Shown here piece by piece: positions 43,307 to 60,143 of a stretch of DNA of 64,000 nt (position 1 is the stretch's first letter; each line of letters opens with the position of its first letter). The DNA is from Ornithodoros turicata (taxonomy: Eukaryota; Arthropoda; Arachnida; Ixodida; Argasidae): assembly GCF_037126465.1 (NCBI RefSeq), contig NW_026999326.1, positions 1,488,001 through 1,552,000 on the forward strand. Direction: 5' to 3'. The position numbers and the translations under genes are program-made. A model generated the notes under the pieces. The model ran no database searches. It was not told where the DNA came from and was given only the letters and a program-made list of their open reading frames with translations.

Positions 43307-44572
43307 CTACTTAGGCAAACCCATTGGAGAAAACCCTGGGAATGCCAATGGTTGAGATCCCGACCAAATGGTCCAACTTTTACTCAGTACCAGACTGTCA
43401 ACGACGCAGGTACTGCCGCAACGCACCACCGGCAACACCAACGATGACTCCAAATGAACTTGGACGGTACAACCTGTGCTCGTGAATGGCATAGCCTCCA
43501 GAAGATTATGGGATGAAGTACTGGGTAGTGCTTCGACAATAACATCAAAAGAAGTACTTGGTCGTGTTTCGACAACATCACCCCACCCAACGTTCACCCA
43601 ACGTTCTGCGTTGCCAGACTGCTTAGCGGCATGAAATAACCTTTTTTTCTTATTTCGCAACCTCTTGAGATGAGTGTTGAACCACGGGGAGTCAGACCGC
43701 GAGAAAATTCTGCGTTGCGGAATGTATTTTTCCATGAGAAACTCCACAAAGTTTCTGAACGCGTTCCAGTTTTCATTTACTGACCGCGTGTGACATATTT
43801 GAAGAAAGTCTGACGACCATGCTTCAACCAAGCTGTTGATAGTTGTGAAATCAGCATTCTTGTAATCCCGAATTAATTTACTCTGCCTTACTGGACGCTG
43901 AGTAGACATGTTAAGCTTAAAGTGGATGATTTTGTGATCACTGAGACCAGGTAAGCACGTCGTAGATGACAGGTAAGTTGGCGTTGTAGTAAAGACGAGG
44001 TCTAATGTTGATGAAGTGACCTCTGTTACCCTAGTTGGCTCTTTTACAAGTTGAGTTAAATTAAAGTCTAAGCACAGGTCTAAGAATTCATTACAGTCAG
44101 AAGAATATGGTACAACACATGGTGATTCACGCTCCCAAGTTATATTAGGAAAATTAAAGCCACCGAGCAGGAATAAAGGTAATGCTGGATAACGAATAAC
44201 TACCGTATTAAGGACACCATGAAGTTTGCACATGAATGAACGATCCATCGATGGTGGACGATAACAGACGCCCAAAACAAAACGGACGTGTTGACAACAT
44301 ATTAAAACCCAAAGTATTTCAAGATCACAATCAATGTTCACGATAACTGCATTGAGGTGTACGGCTACTGCATCGAGGACACCACCACCAGTGCGTGAGC
44401 CTCTATCAGCGCGGAGAACATTGTAATCACGTTCACACCTAAATAACTCACGGTTTGAGATTAATGCAGATAACCACGTTTCAGTCAGCACAACTATAGA
44501 TGCATCACATGAGTCAATAACTGAGCAAAGATCGTCACGCTTGTTTACAACACTCCGTATATTGGTGTACAA
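43307..44572 (-). pseudogene. CR1/L2-like ORF2: endonuclease domain fused to unrelated sequence, RT missing
   Basis: The first ~320 residues are an APE-type endonuclease: TETWL, the GGGVLDAVA block, CYRPP, LGGFNFPNITW and LSDHKIIHF. The usual catalytic GDFN reads GGFN here, so a metal-binding Asp is lost. After the KQSGNAERW point (about 43600) the protein continues with about 98 residues not seen in LINEs, including three 12-residue repeats (VVETRPSTSFDV, IVEALPSTSSHN, LLEAMPFTSTGC). No RT follows. The element was cut and joined to other, possibly coding, DNA while the frame stayed open. Confidence 0.75.
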
Positions 44573-44634
44573 AACAGATATTTCATTTGTAGAACTATGA
44601 CCATCACCCTCTGCGAGTGGTCAATTAGGCGTGC

Positions 44635-45674
44635 GTTCGACGACGCTTACATACGAACCGCGTGCCTCATTACTCGAACTCGCAGAATCCAGCGTTTCTC
44701 CTGAATTCATTCTGTTCTGGTACCGTGAAGGACTAGTATTTTCGTAGACAGAGTCAGCTTCACTATCATACATAAAACATCTGTTGTCGATGTATAACTT
44801 ATTGTAGCGAAGCTTAAAAGGACTGTTCGTGCTCTTCCCATACTCTAATAGCTTTTTCCTAGGAAGACGAGTGGGTAGAGAAAAGTCTTCTGCAGTGCTG
44901 GATTCACTCTCTTTTAGCTTGTGCCGCAACTAGCACACTATCTTTTACTTTAAAGTTCGCGAAGCGGACAATAATGGGCCTGCGTTTATCATTACGGAAA
45001 ATACCGATCCTGTGCGCTCTTTCGATACTATCAGCATGAAAGCGCATCTGCAGTTCTCGGCTTATCAGCTCTGTTACAGTTTTCTCTGCCGCAGCCCATG
45101 TTTCACTGGGATTATCAACCAATCCGTGGAATATGAGGTTATTCCGCCGTTGCCTATCCTCGCCATCAACCAAGCGGCTATTAAGCGCAGCGTGTTCCCG
45201 TTTTAGAGAGAGAGTGGCCTGCTTCAGCGACTGGAACTCGTGTTCAAGGCGGTCTATGGTTTTGGTCTTACTCTCTACGGTGTCGAGACGACTGTCAATG
45301 TGATTAAGTTTTGTTTCCAATTTTTGTTGCGAAGCTTGTATTGCGTTCACAGATTCAATGAGAGACGCTTGACCGTTATCTAGCTTTTACATCTTAGCAT
45401 TGATATCAGATAACAGTTGCAGTACTTCTTCAACTTTATATGTGGTCTTGGGCGGACCCGGGTTCTCTTCTACATCACCAGCTAATAACAACAGGTGACG
45501 GATGACAGAAATGCACTGGCAAGCAACATCACAAAGAACTGTGTGGCGTGGGAACACTAGTAAGGCTGGATCGTCGCTACGTCGAGCGTGCAAAGGTATT
45601 GAATTTTGAGAACCAACCTGAAGTAGCAAACGAAGATTAGCGAACTGTATCCGGACAAATGTTCCCACGCCCAC
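44635..45674 (-). pseudogene. CR1/L2-like ORF1 with N-terminal 2A peptide, coiled coil and RRM-like region
   Basis: It starts MGVGTFVRIQFANLRLLLQ in the proximal 5' UTR monomer. After about 65 residues comes GDVEENPGP. A TAA near 45385 interrupts the frame. The next part (45350-44930) is a heptad-rich coiled coil followed by RRNNLIFHGL and ERAHRIG, as in LINE nucleic-acid-binding ORF1 proteins. A frameshift near 44927 separates the C-terminus (DFSLPTRLPRKKLLEYGKS, FKLRYNKLYID). ORF1 would coat element RNA. The downstream neighbour is ORF2 at 44572. Confidence 0.75.
45453..45479 (-). other. 2A ribosome-skipping motif (GDVEENPGP)
   Basis: The complement of 45453-45479 encodes G-D-V-E-E-N-P-G-P, preceded by a leucine-rich stretch (HLLLLA). 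This matches the D-x-E-x-N-P-G-P consensus exactly. 2A sequences at the N-terminus of ORF1 are known in some CR1/L2-like elements. Skipping would release the leader peptide from ORF1p. Confidence 0.85.
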
Positions 45675-45959
45675 TGAAGAAGTCGAAGGCGGGGTTGCTG
45701 CTTTTATACACTTGACGCAAAGGCGCTGCTGACGTAGCAGAAGTCACACTTGATATCCTGTAGATGGCTCCCGTGCTCGACGCATGCTCTACCGGATCCT
45801 CGTCGTACAAAAGTAGGTTGACTGGTATGTCGCAAACTGGTTCGCGGTCGGCGTTGCTCTGAAGCCACGATGAACCCGCATGATCAAGGTCGGGCAGGAC
45901 AATGAGAATCTGAAGTAGCAAACGAAGATTAGCGAACTGTATCCGGACCATGTTCCCAC
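45618..45959 (-). promoter_or_regulatory. tandem 5' UTR monomers of the CR1/L2-like element (proximal part)
   Basis: A 50-bp partial monomer (45618-45667) and a full ~291-bp monomer (45668-45958) share CTGAAGTAGC, AAACGAAGATTAGCG and GTTCCCACGCCCAC. Repeated monomers at LINE 5' ends usually carry the internal promoter. The array is broken here by the 13.9-kb transposon and resumes at 59846. Confidence 0.7.
45690..45955 (-). CDS. open frame in the 5' UTR monomer (ORF0-like)
   Basis: From an ATG (MVRIQFANLRLLLQ) about 92 residues stay open and end FDFFSG at the monomer border. The frame contains SSWLQSNADREPVCD and SSTGAIYRISSVTSATS. The next monomer (59848-60138) has the same frame with only three amino-acid changes seen. 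It has no domain I recognise. The same leader start is used by ORF1 in the proximal monomer. Confidence 0.35.
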
Positions 45960-46076
45960 CCCAGGCGAAAATTTGATCTGGGAAGTCAACTGGTACCAGC
46001 TCGTTCTCAGTTCGCACCAACTGGTGGTCAACTGGAACCAACTGGTATCAAACTGGTGGCAACTGGAAAGTAAACT

Positions 46077-46332
46077 GGTACCAGTTCAAGCTGGGCTGGT
46101 GGCAACTGGGCACTTTGTGGTACCAGTTCAAGCTGGACTGGTGGCAACTGGAAAGTAAACTGGTACCAGTTCAAGCTGGGCTAGTGGCAACTGGGCACTC
46201 TGTGGTACCAGTTCAAGCTGGGCTGGCGGCAACTGGAAAGTGAACTGGTACCAGTTCAAGCTGGGCTGGTGGCAACTGGAAAGTGAACTGGTACCAGTTC
46301 AAGCTGGACCGGTAGCAAATGGAAGTGGGGTG
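46077..46332. repeat. subterminal tandem repeat, ~42.5-bp period, GGTACC palindromes
   Basis: GGTACCAGTTCAAG starts at 46077, 46119, 46162, 46204, 46247 and 46290. The six units alternate CTGGTGGCAACTGG spacers. AACTGGTACCAGTT is a 14-bp palindrome. Related words continue at 46340-46370 and 46885-46970 (CCACTTGG, CCAACTGGTAC). Such arrays near both ends of a transposon are typical binding sites for its own DNA-binding protein. Confidence 0.8.
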
Positions 46333-46375
46333 GTGCGCCAGTTCGAACTGGACCAGTTTACATATTTGGGGGGAA

Positions 46376-47906
46376 GTTTCGGTTTCAGTGCCAGGACAAG
46401 TTATGAAGATATTGAAAGACAAAGTTATAAAAACGATCAGAAAGTAACTTTATTAGTAGAAATATTCGTATTTCAATTTTTGGTAAAGTTTGTTTGGTGT
46501 TAACGAAGTTATTTTGTAACTTTGTACGTATTTTGTGCGTTTCTGCTCCCGAATGGGGTTATACCGCTTGCTTATAGCAGCATGCTTGTACAGCGATTTT
46601 TCCCGTTATGTGCGTGATGTGTGACATATATAGTCTGCAAGTTACGACAGTACGTGCGACCATGAGCGCCAGCGGCCGGGCGGGTGGGTGTTATTGGATA
46701 CAGCTAGACTACTGGGAGACAGCTTTATCGGTGAGATATATGCTCTCAGCTCGGCTACAACTGCATGTGGAGACCGTTTTATCGCTTGATGCGGAAGTAC
46801 TATCTCCTTCCTGTGTTTCATTTAGAAATGTTATACCCACGAACCTCTTCTCTTTGTTACGCGTCACTTTCGTGGCATCTGCAAGTACTACAGGTTCCAC
46901 TTGGTGTGAGTTTGGCAGCCAAAGTTCAACCAAGTGGCTAGCAAACTCACCAGTTATGGTCCAACTGGTACTGCTTGCACTCCAAATGGAACCCCGGTTG
47001 TGTCGCGTGCGAGTGTCAATTAGGAGAAACTGGAAATCATCTGCCACCCGACAGTTCAAGATGCCAGTGTCTCAACTATTTTCCAATGTAGCTGCTGCCC
47101 CAACTGAAGAGGCGTGCCACAACACCAGAGGAATAAAGCGTTTATTGTGGGCCATCAGTCGTGCAAACAAATATAATTCTTACTGACCTATCCTTTCTGC
47201 ACGTTCCTGCACACACAATATGCCGATATTGCTCTCATAAATCCCTAAAGCCTCATTTTTTGTTAATTTATAGACCTTTGATACAATAAGTGTTTATAGT
47301 AAGGTGTGTTAAGTTTCTGAATTAAGGAAATATCCAACAATACAACATAATTTATTCGTGAGGAACACTTCACCTCAGAAAGAGTTAATATACATGTTCA
47401 TATGCGAGAAAAATAACACTGTGTAAGAGAAAAAGCTACGGAGTTACAGCGGCACAGTATTGCAGTTTGGGCTGGATTTTATCACAATATTTTCCCAAAA
47501 ATGCTGGACCACATAAACAATGAGAAATTATTCAAGGCAGGCCATGAACGTGGGATCAGCACCTCCTCCTCCCCCCACGAGTTGCTTGATTTAGGCCACA
47601 AGAATTAACAGAATGTAGCGACAACATAAACACATAAATATATGGTACTACTGTAAACAGAAATATATCATGCCAAGTAAACTGAATGGATGCACTTGAC
47701 TCAATTCCGTTACAGCTGATCCAACCTGAATACAGCCCAACTGTTTCAGTAAATTACGACAACCCCCCTCGCCCAGGAATTCCCTCGAGTGCCCACTTAC
47801 CAAACTATATCAGGCCCAGTGTATGACAATGAACAATAAGGGTAATTCACTGGACAGAAAATGCCAATAAACTAACTTCTTAAACTCAGGACAGAATTCA
47901 CGATAG
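46376..47906. other. no clear gene inside the transposon left arm
   Basis: A plus-strand frame at 46608-47186 (192 codons) has no known domain, and an opposite frame is also open, so I do not call it. The stretch from 47187 to 47906 is AT-rich and would hold the transposase 3' UTR. Confidence 0.4.
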
Positions 47907-50900
47907 TTAATGCCATTCATATCGATTACACAGTTCAGCAAAGTAGACACTGCACTCAGTCTCCAAGTGCATGCACGGAGAAGCATCTTCAGTAAGCTCT
48001 ATCAGTTGATATGATGGTAGTTTTTCTGCAAGACAAATGTGGTTAACACCACTGACATGATGGGTCGTATAATGATGGGACACAATGTAACACCTGTCTC
48101 TCTGGTTACTGCATGTGACAAATACAATGTGCTCAGCTCTCAGATACAAGTCCTTCACTTTTAAGGGAGTAGAGTCACGTTTACGAGCACGCTTGTACTG
48201 TTCACTGTGAAGAACATATCCACAGACGTTAACACGATGGTATTCTTTAACTTGCACTTCACCCAAACATTGTTGCACCAAGTCAGTTAAATGCTGATGT
48301 GGGGGTACTGGCTTCCCAAGTGGATCCACACCATGGTGTCGTTCGAACACTCTTTGAAGACACGATCTCTTAATGTCCTGCGATGCCATAGACTGCAGTC
48401 GCAAGGAGTTATTCTTCAGCAGTATTCTAGAAAGGATTTGAAATGGAACACCATTCCAAGAAGTAACTAATTTAAGGAGGTGACCAATGCCACTCTCAAA
48501 TGGAAAACAGGATAATGACCACAATGGTCCATGAAGTATAGTGCTTTTTGGCAAGTGCAGGAGAGAATGAACATTAGATGTCATTCGTGTCTCTCCATAG
48601 AGAAACTGCACTTGTACAACAAACTCTGTTATTTTTCAGAACTTTCAGCTAAGTCATCCTTTATTACAACACTCTTCATGAGAAGATAAAGTCCAGGGAT
48701 AAGTAGTGCAAAGTGACGCAAATATTTTTCAGGTAGCACATTCTTGACACAAGGGGGGCAGTAGTAAAATAACCATGTTTAGCATTCGGCCGCCTTCCAG
48801 TACTTCCTAAGCTTGACGTCACGAGGTGGCCTGTTGATGCAGTGCGGTGGCTTAATGCTCATTAATCTGTTGTTTACAAGAGACAGTGCTTGGGGATTTC
48901 CAATATAGTAGTCTTGTCCAGCGGTTCCAAACCATAATTCAAGAAACTGTCGTGTCACACCCAGCAAGGCACAGTGCATGTAGTCGGGCCGGAAACCCCA
49001 CACAATGTCGAAACCTGGCACGTTCAATAGAGGCGAAGGGCCTTTCAATCCTCTCACTGTTCGGTTGCAAGCAGCTGCAGATGACATATCAGCTGCAGTT
49101 TCCGCTGCGGTCCTATCAGCCACTACACCAGTTATGGGTGCTTCACACATCCTGTAGGAATGAAGAGGATACTTAGCCACACACCGTAAATGTAAAATCA
49201 TATCAGCATAACATACCATTACAGATAGCATGAAGTATGTGCCGAAGTGCTGTGAACAAAGACTTTAAAAAATTCTGTTGAAATCACATTGCTTTATGTT
49301 GCTGAGTAGATAGTCTGTGGGTCTTGAGGACATATATCCCACTTATGCGTTCAACCAATACCTTTTTTTTTCTTTGAAGATATGGTAGATTGTTCTTATC
49401 GAACCCGAATACAAACACAATAGTCGTAACGAAAGGAAAGTGAGGTAGCAAGCGAGCTGGTGGTGACGATCCATGACTTGAAAACCCGAGACGAGGTAGG
49501 GACAAAAACAGACAAACACAAACACGGTCTCTCTATCCCTACCTCGTCTCGGGTTTTCAAGTCATGGACAATAGTCGTCTTTATCTAGCACCAGATAATT
49601 TGCTAATTTCTGCTTCCAAATCACTTTGTATGACTGCAACAACTTCTCCCACCTTATTGCACCCATTAGTACACTTAACAATCATTGATACTTTGCCAAC
49701 CCGTAGCTTGGTTATTTCGGTTATTGCCATTCAATTACTTTTGTTTATAAGTATATTTTTCTTTCTGTTCATGAATGTGCGAATCTTTGGCTGTGACTTC
49801 TTGAGAAGCATCCCCCAAAACTTTTGATTTGCTGTGCACAGTACTTCTTGTGTGTCCAACATCTGAAACTTTTTGTGACTGACACATTCCATGTCAGCAC
49901 TTCATACCTACTCCATTTGTTTCAAGTCAATGAATGACCTATTTTGATCACTTCGCTGTGAGCGGCACTGCTGTAACAATAATTCTGATCTTTACGTCAC
50001 GAGACAACTGCTATCTCACCCTGTTGTAACCGTAGCATAATTCAGCACTATCAACCTGCACTTGTATGAAAGGACAAGCTTACCATCGATACAGACTCCT
50101 GGATGCAAACACCAAGTGCAGCCATAATACCCGTTGTACTGTATCATATTTGCCATTGCAGCTCTGGCCGGGGCATCGGCAACACAGGAAATGCAGTAGA
50201 TCTGGAAGCAGTGAAGTATACAAAGGTTGAATAACTTGAATTAGCTTTACCTGGTTTCATTGACATTTCTGTAATCCACTATATTTACCATTATATGCCT
50301 CTACCCTCAGTGTTCCCAACTCGGACACCACATACAAAATTTTGGTGGAATGTCTGGACAAGCAACTTGTCTGTAGGTGAACATTGAAACAGTCACCTTT
50401 GATGTCACACGCTGACCATCAAGATCCCATGAAATACCCTTTGTGGATAAGGTTTGCATCTGACTTGAAAATTCTTCAAGAAGGATAGTCATGTTTGGGT
50501 GTTGCTGTCCATACCAAAGCAGTGGTGATACTATGAATTGCCACCTTAAGTACGGTGCCATTTCGTTGATTGTAAGTTGAATAGGCCAGATAGAATAATT
50601 TGCCGACTTGAACACAGGACTACCATCAGCATTCATTGACACTGTCAAGTCATGTTCACTGCAGTTCAGCATTTTTCTCTGCTGTTTATAGTGCTCCCCA
50701 TCGATGAAGTCAGATAATGCTTCAGATGCACATTCGGATGATCTTATTTGTTCTAGAGTTTGAGATACGCTCTGCCTTGCAGCACTATCAGACAGCACAG
50801 AGGATAGCTGCTTGTCTAGTCGTAAACTAACAAAGAAGCTGCCCTTGTTCATTAGCTCCCTACCACTGTACTGAATTCCACAAATGGAACATTTGGGTGA

Positions 50901-51543
50901 TATTGACTAGCGCTTTTTCAGATGGCCTGCAGTCTTTTGCAGGAAATTCTCACAATTAGGACAGTAAAAGCTGAAGGTCATATCCTCGGGACTTGCACCA
51001 CAAAACTTCCTAAAGAGGTATTTGCTCTGTGGTAGAGTGTCTGTGCCCAGTAATTTGTTGATCAACTTGAGGAGGTCCTCAGTGCCGCTCCATGATAAGC
51101 CATATCTTGATGCAAAGTCCATAACGAGTACTAGAGCATCACCAACAGACATTGTGGACTTGCCACTCTCCAATGGTATGGAGAACTGCAGCGAAAAATC
51201 TGAATGTGTGCTCTCTTGTGGTGTACCAGCATGAAAGTCACTAGGATTCTCATCGGCAGAATTCTCGGACGTGTCACTGTCGATATCACTGCAGTGCTCA
51301 AAACTCTGGTCGGGTTCTTCCACTCTGTGGTGACCACTGTGACCTCCAAATTACTCTGAGACGCTCTCCAGAAAATTGCTGCTTGATTCAGCTGCGGATG
51401 TACTGTCGTGGCCCCTCAAGGCATGTGCTGTTGCTCTCGGCAGTTTTTCTGCAGATGCGTCTGGGTCCAAGTAGAGTTTCCGTCTGCGTTGCTCCATCTC
51501 TGGTGGCAGCTCTCCTGATGACAGGTTGTTGGTAAGGCACCCC
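47907..51543 (-). pseudogene. tnp2-like (CACTA/EnSpm-type) transposase gene, multi-exon, disrupted
   Basis: Order on the minus strand: exon 51543-50397 with an acidic N-terminus, CPNC and CSIC zinc-type pairs, and DLTVSMNADGSPVFKSANYS; exon 50201-50084 with VADAPARAAMANM and a CTWCLHPGV block, bounded by CTTCCAG and GATG/GTAAGC sites; an exon ending at 48779 with FDIVWGFRPDYMHCALLGV and the KPPHCINRPPRD region; and the segment to 47907 with TSNVHSLLHLPKS, CFPFESGIG and LLKLV. These are the hallmark blocks of the tnp2/DUF4218 families. Phase agrees across the first intron. Stops at 51353-51351, 50909-50907 and next to 48779 (KAAEC-stop where the family has W) and a frameshift near 48636 make it a pseudogene. 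Confidence 0.7.
49470..49568. repeat. perfect 33-bp inverted repeat in a transposase intron
   Basis: 49470-49502 and 49536-49568 are exact reverse complements (TCCATGACTTGAAAACC... to GGTAGGGA) around a 33-base loop. It lies in an intron between transposase exons. No mismatch was seen, which suggests recent origin or artefact. Confidence 0.85.
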
Positions 51544-52415
51544 TAAAAAATATTGGTGAGATATATGACAGCCGGAGGCGTACAAATCTGCCACAGAAGA
51601 TTCCTTACAAAGGGAACTACAACGTCAATCCGCCATGAAGTTCAGGAAGGTTGGCTTTTGTCCGCACCTCTTGCACCTTCACTCGGGGGATCCGTACAAA
51701 ACATAGCATGTGTCAGGGGTGCAAGGCAAGGTCCATGCATATAGCGGCTCTTCACGAAACTGAAAGTGCGCAGCTGAGGTAACCGCAACGTCGGAGAATA
51801 ACTTTTCGTTATGCGCACAGCCTGTTTATAGGTTACCGTGATTACCGAGCTCCCTCAAACACCGGTGAGTGCTCAAAAACAAGCATATAGATCGAGCACC
51901 GCCGCACCACAACCGCGCTGCACACTAATGAAGATTTGCAAAACTGAGTACTCCTTTGGCAACGACGACTGGACGATAAAAAACACTGAAGCGGTCGAAG
52001 CGGTTGAGATCTGAAGTTGGCAAGAACAGCATACTTTGTGTCATTGTCATATAGTTTCGTTTTCACAGTATCTATGAGGTTCACGTTCAGTTCATAACAC
52101 GATGTTCAGAAGTGGCGAGCGAAACCGCACAGGGAAACGGCTAAAGCCGATAGCTGATAGAAACAGACTAGACATATAAATGTGTATTGCCATGTGAGAA
52201 ACTGTTTTTAGTATACATACTTGAACTGTTCAAACCACGACGTCGTTCAAACTTAGAAATCATATAAGGAGACGTCTTGGTGTCGCTGATGGTGTCGCTA
52301 GTGTCGCCATATTTGATCAAGCTTACTTCCGTGGCTGTCACGATTCTTTGTCCTTCGGTTTGCCTCATGGTCTGTTGTGTATTTGGGCACGCATGGTTGC
52401 GAGTGCGCTTTTGAA
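51544..52415. promoter_or_regulatory. shared upstream region of the two divergent transposon genes
   Basis: 872 bp between the acceptor of the first recognised transposase exon and the BEN start codon. Upstream non-coding or small first exons of the transposase probably lie here: a minus frame at 52368-52168 begins MRQTEGQRIV and has GT after CAGTTCAA. No TATA box is evident at a convincing distance. Confidence 0.35.
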
Positions 52416-55400
52416 ATGTTCGCGCTTGTACGATTTTTGAAGGAGTTCAGTTGCACTTTATACACCATTTCAGTAAGCAACATCAAAGGCTTTGAGCCGC
52501 AACATAACGACGACTTCGACAAAAACAAACGTTACAGTGTGTTTTGGGATGACGACGATGACAACATTCGTGGATATTACCCTGCCCAAATTTTGATGTT
52601 AGCTGGTGAGTATCATGCTGTGTGGTACAAAAGTGACAGTTGACATATTTACGTTCTAAGTTTTGACGCGGTTAGGTCCGCGTCTGCAAGTTTCATATGT
52701 GGCGGGGTTTACTGCGTACACACGGGGACGCAAGGTGTAATGCAACAGTATCAGTTTCAGGTTGTGTTCATACTAGTGGTAGTGCAAATTAGTGTTTGTA
52801 GAGTACTTGTCTGTATGCGCGGCGTGTGACGGTAGAGTGCTCGCTTTTACGGCGTAAAACTGGACGCGTTGCAACCTCACATGTCATGCAAATGTCGTGT
52901 ACGTTTTATTGCACACGAGTAGCCGATGGGAACTTGACAAAGAAAGTACACCATGTGTTAAGGATAGCAGCACTGGACTATGTTTCGGGTGACTTAAGTG
53001 ATTTATTTTGTTGCGTCTCAGTGCTGCTATGGCTAATATTTTGCTCTCTTGTAGACACAGAAGAGCAGCTGGAAGAGAAGAAAAACACATGCCGCGTTCG
53101 TAAGCCGAAAATGCGTCTTTCGGAAGTCGACATCACAGAGAGTGATAGTGACAACGTTCCTTCGAAAAATCAGAAGAGAAGAAAGGCATGAAGCCTTGCA
53201 TATCAAGGAAGCTTCCACACATCTCAAAGGTTGCTCTCATTTCAGGAAAACAACAAGAAGAAAGAAACCCGAAAGGCTGCGCAAGACGAGGCATATCAAC
53301 GAATACTTGGGGAACAAATCGGTAGTGCCAAGCAAAAGATGCTTCCCCGCAAAACAAGGTATGCAGTGCTTGCGAGCACTTTTTATATTGCAGAACATTA
53401 GTTTTGTTTGTACTTATGAGTTCCAGGTGACAACTGATATTTCCTGAAAAATTGGGGGGGGGATGCTGATAAGCATAATTTTCAGGTCTTCTATCTCTTT
53501 AAATATCCTCATCTCTGGTCACTGTCTGCGAATTCTAGACAGTCATATTGTTTTGTTTTAGTTTTTGTCAAACGAAGACTCCGAAATTTCGGAGTGGGCT
53601 ATAATATAAGATTGTTTTCAGCCGCTTGCTACTTTTGTCATGTTTTAGTTGGTGCTCAAACATCATTCTGAGCAGTCTTCAGATGAACCAAGTGGGAGTT
53701 AGCCATGCTGGCGCAAGCGATACGACGAGAAATGCAAGGAAAATGACAGGCTTCTGAATGTTCTTGAATCAATGCAGCTTTGCGTCGACAAAAAATTATC
53801 CTCAAGTAGGTGCAGTTGGCTCTTCCTCAGATTCCTTTCCAAGATTAATGCATGATTGTGTAATTACATGCCTATATAGTTTGTACAGCTCGGGACAAAA
53901 GTTTACGGAATGGTAACATGGCACAGGCATCTTTCTTCATCAGAGCAGCCCTCTGCTAGCTATCAGGAATAGATCGAATAAGAAATGGGTGGGTGACTGG
54001 CTATTCCATCCACCTCACAGTATGTGCGTCTGCTCCTGTTTTCTGTCAGTGTCGCTGATGGAGAAAAGCGACACCCTGGTTTTCCGTAAACTTTTGTCCC
54101 AAGGTGTACTACATTTAGTTCAATTCAATTCAGTTTTTCCATAAAACCCGAATCATCATCATCATCATCACAATTGCATGCCTCTGAGTATGACGAACCG
54201 AAGCCAATTGGAAATGCGCTCTGCATTAATAAATGACTGCATAGATACACTGATAGATATATTTCACTAAAAGGGCTCCAAATGCTAACTGCTTACTCGA
54301 GACGCGAGAAAGTAAATTCCTGCGCCATTATGAGCCTCTCATGAAATTTCAATTTTGCAGTTGAGCAGGCTCTAGAAAGATGTCAAAGCCAGCTGTGCTG
54401 CACAGCCCCATTCTACACTACAGAGTCTTCACGTCAAAGGGCAGCAGCATTGCCTCATCCGCCTTGCAGCCCTACACAGATCTTACTTGAAGAGCACTGT
54501 AGCCCGCCAACATCCCCACCTGGAGCATCACCCACTAGAGCATGGACACCCTGTCTTTCAATCTCCCTCGAAGAGCCGCCCACAACACAGGAATCGAGCT
54601 CAGGAACAACTGAAATATGTCCCCGTCTTGGCAGTCAACAACCATCAGTGTCTCCGATGCCCGGTACCTTTCCCTGGCTTCCCCCTGCTGGTAACTTCCC
54701 CCTGCCTGACAGCGAGAAGCTTGTTGAAGTGGAAGCATTCACCAACGTGGCAAATGATAAGGTAGGGAATATGTGGAGGGACTTGCTCTCCCAACAGTCA
54801 GTAGACTCAGGATTTCAAGGCAAAATTGTTTCTTTTTATATTTCCTTCTAGATAGCATATTCTGGATACTGGAGCATGAATTGGGTATTGGAGAGCTAAC
54901 ACCACTACTATCAGATTGTTATCAGTTAAGGTTTCATCGAATTAATGCGGCCAGCTGGGAGCTACAAGTCATTCATGTTAGTAACCTAACTTCGGCGTAG
55001 TTGAGACAGTGCATCGCAAAAGAAACCCTGCCAAGGAACATCAAAGATACAACAGTGTGTGTCCCAGGCCTCCTGTATGTCATGTTGTGGACCAGTAGCT
55101 CTGTTAGAGAATCCTGAGTCAGTATACCACTGCTTATGATGTTCAGAGTCTTTGTCATAACCAGATGCTGGTCATTGCAATTAATCACGTTCCACATGAC
55201 ATTACTGACTTGCAGTTCCATCTTACCAAAGGCGTGTGCATCACTGAACTACAAGCAAAGAAAATTCTGGGTAACCAGAAAGCAACATTGGTGGCCAAGG
55301 ACTTGGCCATGGCACTGTGGGGAGCCAAGGGTCTTGCAGAAAGAAGTGTTGGCGGAACTGCTGCACCAAAAGACAAAAACAAGCCCAACTGTGTTCCGCG

Positions 55401-57896
55401 GCCAAAACTAACTCCGGTAAAGGTCGGAGTAATCGTGGGTAAGTGGCGATTGTACAGAGTGATGTTATAGCATGGTTTAAGGCTGACCCACATGTAGCGA
55501 TTGTTGTACGCAAAAATGCGACAGACCAAACTGAAGTTCTTGCAATCACATGATTGCTCCCATAGCTCACAGTCGGGAAAGTCACTCCCAACTTACGGTA
55601 TCACATTGGCGCCAATATAGCTTATGATACATTTTTGGTTGACTGCTAGTACATTGTCCCACTGCTGTAATCAGGATGTACTATTAAATTTTACCTGCCT
55701 CCCCCCATGTGCTGAAAATATACCCCCAAAAAGTGAAGGCCTAGATCAAGGGGTGGTGTCGCCGACAAAAGCTGCTCTCTGCAAGTTCACATCACTTGCT
55801 CTCGCATAATTTAAAAGTTTGGTTCCGTTACAAGGCTACAATCAGAATTATACCGGACTCCGTCCTGCCTCAGCAATTAGCAGTGCACGTCAGTTGCGCT
55901 CATGTATTATTGCTCTTCGTCCATGCGTTACGTGCCATGTCCTGGATCAGTTTCGTCAAAAACATATGGCCAATTCGAGTAGTTATTTTGTAGCAACTTT
56001 TTTAGATATCCCAAGCAGTCATGTTTGCTTAGTCACAGCGAAGCAATCACAAGCAGGGAAGGGTAACGGAAACAGAAACGGTATATTACCGAAATTCGAG
56101 ATGGTAACGATAGCGGAAACTCATACCATGGTCATCCATTACCGGACACAGAATTGGAAACGAAAATTATCGTCCAGCATTGAATTCGGGTAATGGCTAT
56201 TCCTGTTGTGCGATGACATTTGAGTGACGTTTCATTTTATTTTAGTATTTTATGACTCCATTTCCTGTAATGCTCCAAATGCTACACGTGAGCATGGAAA
56301 CAAAAAGCGCAATATTGGATCCCGAGGGTGCATCCCTCGCTTACCTCGTCCCAGTCCTCATAAATCCATGACATCAACACCTGACTATACTCCACCATAA
56401 CACGAGGATGACAGCCTACGATTTTTAGTTTATTGTTTACTTTTTTCATGTCACCGTGGCTATGGCAGTATTATTTACTACTGAGTGCGTCCGATTATGA
56501 ATGTGACATTGGGTGAAGGTTACACCCATCTTGAGTTGCTGAACTCAGAGTGACTGACTCCTACATCTTTTTAAAAATCTTGCAGGATGTGCACATCCCG
56601 ACGACATAAAATTACTTGTGTAGTGTGTACGCGTGACACCAAAGCAGCACTTGGTGCTGACAGAGCCAGACAGGCTGTCCTCCCGCAGCTCTGTAACAAC
56701 CGTTCCATTACCGGGAACAGTAACGGAAACGTAACCAAAACGAAATTGAAAGGCTGGTATCAGAAACTGATAACGGAAATGAGTATATGGCAGTAACAAA
56801 AATAGAAACAGTAACGAAAATACATCCGTTACCCTTCCCTGATCACAAGTCTCATTTGCCTGTGGTACTTTCTGAGCGCTATGCAGTGTTGCCATGAAAG
56901 GAGTGTGAAATTGGTGCTGACGCCAGGAATTGAACGTGGGTCTTCGAGTAAATAAAATACTAAAGCCCAGGTTCAATTTCCAGTTCAGATTTTTTTCCCC
57001 TGAGTTGTTTGAATTTGTTAATTTCTGGGCGTTTGAGGCTTACTTGTCTCTGTCGTCTCTAATTGTGGTCTGCCTCTGCAAATTCTCGTTGTTCACGTAA
57101 TTGAAACAATCACTTTCAGTTCAGAACAAGTTGCTTCTGTATTTTAGCGTCCCTTTACTGTATTGCAAGCACAACAGGCCAGACCAAAAAGAAAGCTTGA
57201 AATTCCTTTGATTTCACTGCAAAAATTTATCGTCTGTTTTAAATTAATGCAAGTCTACTGTTAAATGGGCAAAACACAGGTATACAAGGTGCTATTTTTT
57301 CTAATTCAGTGTGATTCGTTGCCTACGGTGAACGTTTTCCAAAAATTGTTGTTGCAAAAAAGTAAATAATGGCTCTAAATCGACAGAATGTTCACTGCAC
57401 TCTTTCACGCTTATGCCCCGCCCTGCGATGCCCTGGCGACAACAACCACACATCATTTTGACGTCGCGCACCATCAACCATTGAAAATGCCGGACGCTAA
57501 TTGGTTTTGTTCTAATATCGCACACTGAGATCAATTCTAAACATCTGTTCACTTGTCAACCCCAAGGTAGCCAGATCAAACGGCACGAAAAGGCCACAAT
57601 GTTCCATTTCATGTTCGCACTATGTCTTAAGTGCTGGACTTCTCCGTGGGGTCACCGCGATGCTCCCGCAACCGGTTCCTTCGCGAGCTGCAGCTTGCCT
57701 CAGTGGGGCCCGTCATTGGCTAGGAGAGCCAATATATATATACCTTTACCATTTCAACTTTACAGAAACGTTGAACTACTGGGGCAGGAACAAGAAAATG
57801 GACCCATTAAGTGCCATCAAGAACATCAACAGCATTCTATCAGACAAAATCCAAGATGTTCGCAAAGCTCTGAAACGCAAGAAGGACCAAGCATGA
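52416..57896 (+). CDS. BEN-domain protein gene, seven exons (~448 codons if intact)
   Basis: Exons: 52416-52605 (MFALVRFLKEF, acidic DDDDDN), 53055-53185, 53246-53358 (basic), 53649-53805 (coiled-coil-like YDEKCKENDRLLNVLESMQ), 54361-54761 (Pro/Ser-rich), 55216-55438 (BEN domain: LTKGVCITELQAKK, LAMALWGAKGLAERSVGG) and 57766-57896 (KNINSILSDKIQDVRKALKRK, stop). Splice sites are good, and phases agree for 1-2, 2-3, 4-5, 5-6 and 6-7. Intron 2 has a GC donor. Exon 3 ends in phase 2 while exon 4 needs phase 0 and has TAG at 53700-53702, so the gene is probably broken or an exon is missed. BEN domains bind DNA. Within the element, I infer a role at the subterminal repeats. Confidence 0.7.
53886..54106. 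mobile_element. Tc1/mariner-type MITE, 221 bp, in BEN intron 4
   Basis: The TIRs CAGCTCGGGACAAAAGTTT and CACCTTGGGACAAAAGTTT (complement of the right end) lie within TA/TA (53884-53885, 54107-54108). No coding content. It inserted after the host transposon arose. Confidence 0.85.
54150..54170. repeat. (ATC)n microsatellite
   Basis: Six to seven ATC units at about 54153-54171, in the same intron. Confidence 0.85.
56054..56841. mobile_element. hAT-type non-autonomous element, 788 bp, in BEN intron 6
   Basis: An 8-bp duplication ATCACAAG (56046-56053 and 56842-56849) surrounds termini CAGGGAAGGGTAACGGA and TCCGTTACCCTTCCCTG. An 8-bp duplication with CAGGG ends is diagnostic of hAT. Near each end are repeated GTAACGGAAAC-like words, as in hAT subterminal regions. 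No transposase frame is present. Confidence 0.9.
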
Positions 57897-58920
57897 AGTT
57901 AGCACAGGGCTTTGTGAGGTGGTGGTGACACAAGGGATTCAGGGATTTAGGATTTTTTATTTTTACTCATTCATATTACAAATTTTAAGGAGTGCTAGGC
58001 CTAGGTGGTCACAGTGCAGATAGAAGTTCCAGTATTGCTTCATATGTTTTATATGAGCACAACAGGTTTAAGAAAACGCTGACGGGATGACTGCAGATTC
58101 ACAGCTCAACCTTTATTTGACAGACAGGCGAATTACAACACAGGTGAATTACTTCCAATAGAGTGAGTCCTGACCCCAGAATGGAAACCACACAAGATGT
58201 GTGTGACCCTGAACTAGTACTACAGAATTCATTTTGCAGCATCACTGAAGTGCATGCATCACAATCGTCCCACATCATCTGCTTCCAGATTAGCGCAATA
58301 GAAGGTGATGCAACGCTCCCCCCAAAGCGAGAATGTTATGTGCCTCAGTGGTTGCACAATCCAGATGTTCTCTGTGCCTTGCAAAGATGATAGGGTCCTG
58401 CACACACACAGCGCAGGTTACCCTATGTCAAATGTACTCTGCACACCGTATATTTGTCCCCTTTCGTGTCACACAGTATATGTGGGACCGGCGTGCAGAT
58501 GCCTTAAAGTTAGTCAAGAAAATGCATCATCTTAGGACCCTCTAGGCATCTAGCAATTCATTGTAGAGACAGCAGCACATGCACTACCACTTTGGAGCAC
58601 ACTACCATTATTGCCAGGCGCAGAGAACAATTGGTCCATGAAATCATTGAGGCACGTAATTATGAGGCAACTCCTCTTCCGAAGTGGGAATGTTAAGCAC
58701 ATTCCCACTTTGTGGAACATTGCATCATAAATATATAAATACACATAAACATGTCAAATAAAGTTTCAGTTGTGAGTCTGCAGTCAATCCCGTCTGTGTT
58801 GTTCGGAACTTGTTGCCTCATCTGTTACTTGTTCAGGGAACTGCTTGTGGCATGTTGCCACACAGTCAAGTTAGCGATTTAATAGCCTAGTCTTTTTATA
58901 TCTACTCAGTTTTTGAAGGT
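57897..58920. other. BEN 3' UTR side, no gene seen
   Basis: No domain was recognised. AATAAA at about 58756 could end the BEN transcript. A short hairpin AGTGGGAATGT/ACATTCCCACT lies at about 58682-58708. Confidence 0.4.
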
Positions 58921-59355
58921 TTTTCTTTCATTTAATATTGCCAGGTGAAGTTGGTACATGAAACTGCCTTACCTGTTTGTAAAATCCCAGCAAAGCCAGA
59001 ACGCAATCTTGTGGCTTGTACTTTACTATAATCTTACTCTAGTCATGTGTGATTTTCAGTTTTCTTTAATTTAATATTGCCAAGTGAAGTTGGTACGTGA
59101 ATACATGAAAATGCCTTACCTGTTTGTGAAATCACAGCAAAGCCAGAACGCAATCTTGTGGCTTGTACTTTACTATAATCGTACTCTAGTCATGCGTGAT
59201 TTCCACAGTTTTCTTTTCATTTCATATTACCAAGTGAAGTTGGTATGTGAATACATGAAAATGCCTTACCTGTTTGTGAATTCAAAGCAAAGCGAGAACA
59301 CAAGCTTGTGGCTTCTACTTTAGTATAATCTTACTCTAGTCATGCGTGATTTTGC
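58921..59355. repeat. three tandem copies of a ~137-150-bp repeat
   Basis: Copies begin at 58921, about 59058 and about 59209, each with TTAATATTGCC, GTGAAGTTGGTA, CCTTACCTGTTTGT, CTTGTGGCTT and TACTCTAGTCATG. Divergence is a few percent between the first two and higher for the third. The array sits just inside the right subterminal region of the 13.9-kb element. Confidence 0.85.
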
Positions 59356-59619
59356 CACACTGCCAAGTTAGCATATGGCGCAACCTGCGTATATTGAGCC
59401 ACAGAATAGTATATTTCAGTTTGGCACAAGTTTAGAAATTTTTTCTAATTGTACTCTCCTAACTGTAATGCGCATTTGCTTACTGGATGCCAGTTGTACA
59501 GTTGCTTGAGAAATGCTAATATAAATAAAATGCATTTTTCTTTTCCAGTACGTTTTTGTGCAGCTTTCTAGGCCGGACAAACCATGTATCGAGTTGGTCC
59601 GAGTAGGCTGGTTAAAAAC

Positions 59620-59845
59620 CACTTTGGTTCCACCAAGTGGTTCCAGCTCAACTGGTACCAGTTGCAACTGGGACCGGATGAACTGTGTTATCGAACAGGG
59701 ACCAGTTCAATCAACTGGTACCAGTTGTCCCAACTGGTTTTGAAACCCGTCACAGTCTCTACTGGGACCGGTTGGTTCCACTTCAACTGGTCCCTGTTCG
59801 ATAACACAGTTCAACTGGTACCAGTTCAAAAAAATTTCGCCTGGG
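59620..59845. repeat. right subterminal region: GGTACC palindromes and a 28-bp-arm hairpin
   Basis: AACTGGTACCAGTT-type palindromes are at about 59650, 59713 and 59814. GAACTGTGTTATCGAACAGG and the next eight bases (59680-59707) are the reverse complement of 59785-59812. This is the counterpart of 46077-46332 at the other end of the transposon. Confidence 0.8.
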
Positions 59846-60143
59846 ACGCCCACTGAAGAAGTCAAAGTCGGGGTTGCTGCTTTTATACACTTGACGCAAT
59901 GGCGCTGCTGACGTAGCAGAAGTCACACTTGATATCCTGTAGATGGCTCCCGTGCTCGACGCATGCTCTACCGGATCCTCGTCGTACAAAAGTAGGTTGA
60001 CTGGTATGTCGCAAACTGGTTCGCGGTCGGCGTTGCTCTGAAGCCACGATGAACCCGCATGATCAAAGTCGGGCAGGACAAGGAGAATCTGAAGTAGCAA
60101 ACGAAGATTAGCGAACTGTATCCGGACCATGTTCCCACGCCCA
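59846..60143 (-). promoter_or_regulatory. distal 5' UTR monomer of the CR1/L2-like element
   Basis: This is a full monomer (59848-60138 plus GCCCAC), continuous with 45959 once the transposon is removed. It carries the second copy of the ORF0-like frame (MVRIQFANLRLLLQ at about 60130), which now reads through into the transposon end. The LINE 5' boundary is about 60143. Confidence 0.7.

Follow-up and report, generated by a model that had tools for sequence, protein, structure and literature searches.

A divergent transposase and BEN-like gene pair in a broken CACTA-type transposon of the tick Ornithodoros turicata

TNPA, one of two proteins encoded by the plant transposon En/Spm, binds the subterminal repeats of that element. 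Both TNPA and its partner TNPD are described as needed or proposed for transposition (PMC1636069), and the element has CACTA termini and a 3-bp target duplication (PMC4158355). The animal TRC elements, such as SmTRC1 of Schistosoma and Spongebob of Hydra, are reported to have terminal inverted repeats (TIRs) starting with CCC and a 2-bp target duplication (PMC1636069, PMC4298943). SmTRC1 carries a Transposase_21 domain, and its authors supposed that the animal CACTA transposase has a TNPA-like DNA-binding partner and asked for a test (PMC1636069). The element described here is 13,886 bp long and lies in a stretch of 64,000 nucleotides from Ornithodoros turicata (contig NW_026999326.1, positions 1,488,001 to 1,552,000), referred to as the window. 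It shares the CCC termini and 2-bp duplication of the TRC elements and matches the Transposase_21 profile below the gathering score. In addition it carries a second gene, separate from the transposase and divergent, in which a BEN-like domain is recognisable. Unlike TNPA, this second protein is thus BEN-like and divergently encoded. We read the element, with moderate confidence, as a broken copy of a two-gene animal CACTA transposon in which the transposase is likely helped by a predicted BEN protein that would bind palindromes at the ends.

The element extends from position 45960 on the left to 59845 on the right, and both ends are exact. They carry a perfect 11-bp TIR, CCCAGGCGAAA, with 14 of the 15 outermost bases paired, and in the window this sequence occurs at the two element ends only. 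In the genome (1.07 Gb searched) it was counted 864 times, compared with 188 for the reversed pattern. An uninterrupted paralogue of the empty site lies ~300 bp from the element: the two flanks, joined minus one AC, match the repeat at 45615-45918 at 97.4% over 304 bp spanning the junction. This match fixes both ends, and the element was inserted with a 2-bp AC target duplication (Table 1). An earlier reading of the sequence alone (the sequence-only reading) had already noted inverted termini and flanks that rejoin into an uninterrupted nearby repeat, and both observations hold. Among the 13 related elements with both ends seen, 12 show a 2-bp duplication (the window element, copy A, families D and E, and eight short copies, all described below, but not copy B). 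The same 11 bases are common to several sequence families; at three loci (L001-L003) they are followed by a different subterminal sequence, with near-identical flanks.

The minus strand carries a tnp2-type transposase gene of three exons. The splice sites are consensus, and the frame across exons 2 and 3 is not reconciled. All the CMC motifs defined in PMC12730594 (D, D, C(2)C, H(3)H and E) are present. In the related transposase P0001 of Ornithodoros turicata these are D286, D371, C390, C393, H598, H602 and E622, which are invariant across 10 aligned relatives and legible by eye in the window's gene; the triad was assigned from the published order and spacing rather than from a structure. The Pfam profile Transposase_21 (PF02992) matches the read-through of the window gene with an expectation value (E) of 2.9e-5 and P0001 with 1.7e-6, both below the Pfam gathering score, and many relatives bear PF02992 in the database's own annotation. 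Relatives number 107 among 7996 candidates scored, the best at 63% over the full length, and they include sequences from Ixodes, Rhipicephalus, fish and echinoderms; a search of viral contigs gave two pattern matches and no relative. The multi-exon tnp2-type transposase of the sequence-only reading is borne out by these results, and the gene in the window is broken, with three in-frame stops, which correspond to residues 49, 194 and 527 of P0001, and a frame change before the last part. An inverted repeat or foldback in a transposase intron (49477-49561; 26-bp arms compared by eye) is possibly a small nested insertion.

Based on the transposase motifs, the TIRs beginning with CCC (CCCAGGCGAAA, and CCCAGGTGAAAA and CCCTGCTGGAAAT in two further families) and the 2-bp duplications, the element is by its sequence characters a member of the animal CACTA (TRC/EnSpm) group. 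The plant-type CACTA...TAGTG termini and 3-bp duplication are absent, with CCC ends and 2-bp duplications in their place. Cut-and-paste movement would be expected from the superfamily.

The second gene lies on the plus strand and is divergent from the transposase. It begins with MFALVRFL and continues through a coiled-coil-like part (recognised by eye) to a C-terminal BEN-like domain. When a profile of six relatives was compared with the PDB, the best match was 4ix7 (E 0.0039) and the next had an E of 0.65. We take 4ix7 to be the structure of the BEN-solo protein Insensitive. The Pfam BEN profile (PF10523) matches three of the six members of this set (best 1.9e-4), two of eight full proteins (best 0.0015) and the BEN exon of family E (2.7e-4). 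We regard the domain as a likely BEN domain. The BEN-solo proteins Insensitive and BEND5 have a similar C-terminal domain, but they are host regulators rather than transposon-encoded proteins; the N-terminus of the tick protein presumably also resembles that of BEND5. The divergent, spliced BEN gene of the sequence-only reading is recovered as a multi-exon gene on the opposite strand, its domain scoring weakly with Pfam and best with 4ix7. To that reading can be added that both genes in the window are broken, the BEN gene by an in-frame stop in its coiled-coil-like exon.

Relatives of the BEN protein are few. Two protein searches gave 6 and 7 matches, all from ticks where the source is named, and the window query matches P0108 (LOC135372824) of Ornithodoros turicata at 100% over 57% of the query. 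This NCBI model is a chimera in which a reverse transcriptase (PF00078) is fused to the transposon's BEN exons. A second model, P0109 (LOC135372000; best match copy B, C1:160.20M), has its first ~45 residues in another frame than the second BEN exon, and its N-terminus is probably mis-modelled.

The sequence-only reading had proposed a search for similar termini bounding both genes elsewhere, with short duplications, and for intact copies. In copy A (C1:194144386-194161076, 16,691 bp) the TIRs are exact and the duplication is TG. P0001 matches this locus at 98–100% in each of three exons, and neither this transposase nor the six BEN exon stretches chosen (387 codons) contain stops. Copy B (C1:160200652-160223994) consists of long blocks 94–97.5% identical to copy A with extra insertions, and the alignment of the two starts and stops exactly at the termini. 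Both genes lie inside same-type ends in copy B, where the transposase is interrupted by one or more stops and apparently changes frame. Just outside it, at C1:160196208-160196611, is a further related-element end consisting of a GGTACC array and TTTTCGCCTGG. Copy C (C1:146164781 onward) also has both genes; beginning at an exact left TIR, 11,846 bp of it align with the window element at 96.2% identity.

Two more distant families contain the same divergent gene pair within their own, differing CCC termini. Family D (C2:13897865-13906795) has the TIR CCCAGGTGAAAA and a CA duplication; its transposase is 41% identical to P0001 and its BEN exon also matches at 41%. Family E (C1:147104043-147116230) has the TIR CCCTGCTGGAAAT and an AA duplication, with a transposase 32% identical to P0001 and a BEN exon matching at 44% over 52 residues. 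The TIR search in both families was limited to matches beginning with CCC, and the duplication served as one criterion in choosing the ends of family E. An alternative pair of ends for family E, a 9-bp inverted match at 147106946/147113025, was rejected, as its start lies within the transposase and it lacks a duplication. Copy A and families D and E all combine termini, gene pair and short duplication, in D and E with termini of their own.

Genome-wide, the BEN query gave 100 exon matches at 72 loci and the transposase query 72 exon matches at 54 loci (103 of 321 BEN candidates and 55 of 3107 transposase candidates were scored). A BEN exon lies within 30 kb of 29 of the 54 scored transposase loci, compared with 0.22 expected under a uniform model, and in all 29 pairs the two genes diverge, BEN being located 5' of the transposase. 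Termini were sought at six of these pairs (the window, A, B, C, D and E). The number of independent families is lower than 29, because some pairs are copies of one family (the window with C, A with B, and probably C2:13.9M with C1:162.95M, whose BEN scores are equal). Some of the 100 BEN matches, among close copies, represent DNA likeness rather than protein likeness, because residues ~1–45 of P0109 follow a different frame from that of the exon which the window protein matches in copy A.

Annotation at this locus is unreliable, as the fusion in P0108 indicates, and this might suggest that the two genes are adjacent by chance or through an assembly artefact. However, separate copies occur on several contigs with differing flanks and duplications and are visible in the raw sequence, and 29 pairs were observed compared with 0.22 expected; both chance neighbourhood and annotation artefact were rejected, and we give this explanation practically no credence. 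The claim that the two genes form one mobile unit is strongly supported, both by the pairing and by the presence of the pair within the ends of A, B, D and E and next to the exact left end of C.

BEN genes also occur as animal host genes, and for 43 of the 72 BEN loci no transposase is listed within 30 kb, as might be expected if BEN had been captured from the host and were a passenger in a few copies. Against this, BEN is carried by families whose transposases are 32–63% identical to P0001, always divergently in the 29 pairs, and nonsynonymous divergence (dN) is well under a saturated synonymous divergence (dS) between subfamilies. The identities of transposase and BEN to one reference pair rise together, with a Spearman coefficient of 0.64 in the 29 pairs but 0.37 (P 0.08) in the 24 pairs below 60%, where one value per gene was picked from the match rows and C3:54.68M is represented by its last BEN exon only. 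The low dN against saturated dS in both genes fits functional roles for BEN better than a passenger. The passenger gene was rejected on the conservation of BEN across families and appears very improbable. Because the pair recurs between termini in several copies and families and at 29 of the 54 scored loci, the BEN gene is almost certainly a conserved part of the transposon.

The subterminal repeats reported in the sequence-only reading are also present, as arrays of the 14-bp palindrome AACTGG-NN-CCAGTT at both ends. There are 7 exact copies of AACTGGNNCCAGTT in the window element, 15 in copy A and 12 in copy B, none of them farther in than 900 bp from the left end or 600 bp from the right end. 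At up to two mismatches the counts are 14, 39 and 28, with 0, 0 and 1 in the middle of the elements and means of 0.4–0.9 in mononucleotide shuffles. The remaining 50,114 bp of the window contain no exact occurrence and 6 at up to two mismatches.

The terminus followed by AACTGG gave 337 genome matches compared with 0 for the reversed control; one end or more was counted twice. With 98 of the 100 listed rows taken into account, there are 26 inward-facing pairs less than 30 kb apart, all joining a left-type with a right-type end, in addition to two outward and one same-strand neighbour pair. Eighteen of the 26 are 1.4–2.9 kb long. The eight short copies fetched from this set (351–2,887 bp) all have 2-bp duplications and 4–9 strict palindromes, and none of the best four alignments of these copies to the window element lies within the genes; short copies sharing the ends, another proposal of the sequence-only reading, therefore exist. 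One 15,975-bp pair of window-type left and right ends (C1:199477391-199493365) has no listed transposase or BEN match and may hold a nested insertion.

The end repeats differ in the other families. In family D the commonest 10-base end repeat is AAGTGGATCC, which is part of the palindrome AAGTGGATCCACTT. In family E, motifs picked after inspecting the ends are of a CCAATT type (9 in 1,200 bp of ends compared with 6 in 10,988 bp) and a CAATGRG type (11 compared with 3 in the same lengths). Differing end repeats are as would be expected if protein and sites change together.

Fly Insensitive is reported to bind a palindrome as a dimer and to be able to form higher multimers (PMC6317261). By analogy, a BEN fold protein would bind AACTGG-NN-CCAGTT as a dimer, and dimers on many sites would bring both ends together and guide the transposase to the terminal repeats, the part ascribed to TNPA in En/Spm. 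A further effect of binding near the ends may be to protect the element from silencing. The ends and arrays would be the cis-acting part of the system and the proteins the trans-acting part, a division suggested because the short copies keep ends and arrays. We lean slightly towards end recognition or transposition as the main role of the BEN protein.

VANC proteins of the VANDAL transposons are anti-silencing factors, and both the VANDAL transposase superfamily and the VANC protein family differ from those of the tick element. They are described as binding short tandemly repeated motifs that differ among related elements (PMC5735166), and fly BEN-solo proteins are reported to have repression and insulation activities (PMC6911014, PMC6317261). 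The tick element similarly combines an element-encoded protein with short-motif arrays that are tandem and differ between the families examined. BEN could, by these analogies, be an anti-silencing or boundary factor that keeps chromatin at the terminal arrays open or insulated, with no direct part in cutting or joining DNA, and a VANC-like role of this kind would fit nearly as well as end gathering. However, the arrays occupy both extreme ends, with kilobases between them and the gene starts, and all eight short copies fetched have kept them there, which fits a cis need for moving; their position is equivocal, since retained ends must lie there anyway. Taken as the main role, we consider this rather unlikely. 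Repression of the element by its own BEN protein, which would shut the genes or block the transposase at the ends as a copy-number control, would fit less well. Fly BEN-solo proteins are reported to repress transcription (PMC6911014), TNPA to repress the active Spm promoter (PMC1636069), and divergent genes could share a regulator; but the arrays are kilobases from the divergent start region at ~51.5–52.4 kb, and self-repression seems distinctly improbable.

Several observations weigh against a two-gene transposon with a BEN protein acting at the ends. The left end of copy B is mutated and its duplication mismatched (AT/AG), and the right 2.1 kb of copy C did not turn up in the 11 kb that follow (up to 146188000). 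No listed BEN match lies within 30 kb of 25 of the 54 scored transposase loci; the 43 BEN loci mentioned above may bear on the sequence-only reading, which had held that such genes at conserved host loci without the termini would speak against it. The 128-residue region of the window matches PF10523 at an E of 0.036, below gathering, the 75-residue core exons of the window and family D, taken by themselves, remain unmatched in Pfam up to an E of 1, and every BEN score seen with Pfam is under the gathering cut-off. The dN/dS ratios between copies A and B (0.32 for BEN, 0.33 for the transposase), which speak for selection on both genes, are derived from 15 and 41 changes, respectively. Between copy A and the window dN is 0.30 for BEN and 0.26 for the transposase with dS saturated, where the BEN comparison (250 codons) seemingly includes about a dozen window codons past exon 1, in the intron, with a stop met. 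In family D the 14-bp palindrome AAGTGGATCCACTT occurs once exactly, three times at up to two mismatches and five times at up to three, and the repeats of family E are not clearly palindromic; the palindromic site is therefore well shown for the window's family only (the window, A, B and the short copies). Finally, a TNPA-like part need not mean end gathering, because TNPA also regulates its promoter according to PMC1636069. A set of 45 pairwise comparisons of one BEN exon from 10 loci, with close-pair ratios of 0.21–1.42 and very few changes, speaks neither for nor against selection.

Accessory genes related to chromatin are described for fungal EnSpm, Plavaka and other elements carrying a TET/JBP dioxygenase, some of them in the same broad CMC group (PMC12730594); that accessory is an enzyme, whereas the tick element has a putative DNA-binding partner. 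The main text of PMC12730594 has no occurrence of 'BEN domain'. Among the papers listed by searches of an open-access library, none deals with a transposon-borne BEN gene; Repbase, outside this scope, may hold an unnamed second protein. A recognisable DNA-binding family beside a transposase, together with candidate end sites, makes the partner question from the SmTRC1 work testable (PMC1636069). If a BEN protein does help the transposase, BEN domains would join the DNA-binding folds used by transposons, the families would provide a paired protein–site series for the study of specificity change, and the elements would be a possible source of host BEN regulators. A broader and more doubtful proposal, advanced tentatively, is that a whole branch of animal CACTA transposons uses a BEN dimer as an obligate second transposition protein, each co-evolved with its own palindromic array, and that host BEN regulators or insulators could be tamed descendants.

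Table 1. Features of the element and its target site (window positions)
Feature	Position	Strand	Basis
Target-site duplication AC, left copy	45958..45959	.	Empty-site comparison
Left TIR CCCAGGCGAAA	45960..45970	+	Homology with copy C begins exactly here
Left subterminal array; AACTGGTACCAGTT palindromes at 46073, 46158, 46243, 46286; mostly 42–43-bp units	45988..46324	.	
Transposase exon 3 (C-terminal; H(3)H, E; in-frame stop 48779-48781; frame change near 48632-48660)	47907..49151	-	
Transposase exon 2 (second D, C(2)C motif)	50084..50201	-	
Transposase exon 1 (first D; in-frame stops 51351-51353, 50907-50909)	50397..51497	-	
BEN exon 1 (MFALVRFL..., gtgagt donor)	52416..52605	+	Matched in copies A, B and Ixodes proteins
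BEN exons 2 and 3 (boundary ~53188/53247 unsettled; TGA at 53189 between)	53055..53356	+	
BEN coiled-coil-like exon (edges unsettled; in-frame stop 53700-53702)	53675..53806	+	
BEN linker exon, consensus splice sites	54361..54761	+	
BEN-domain core exon	55216..55438	+	Profile/PDB comparison; by itself unmatched in Pfam up to an E of 1
Last BEN exon, with stop codon	57766..57896	+	
Right subterminal array; palindromes at 59650, 59713, 59813	59638..59826	.	
Right TIR	59835..59845	-	Inverted match to left TIR
Target-site duplication AC, right copy	59846..59847	.	Empty-site comparison

Two other features of the window can be mentioned. The right part of the element contains a 150-bp tandem repeat of 2.7 copies (58955-59353). 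To the left of the element, the minus strand at 43307-45743 contains frames resembling a long interspersed nuclear element (endonuclease and reverse transcriptase by eye), and the transposon is inserted in their upstream repeat units.

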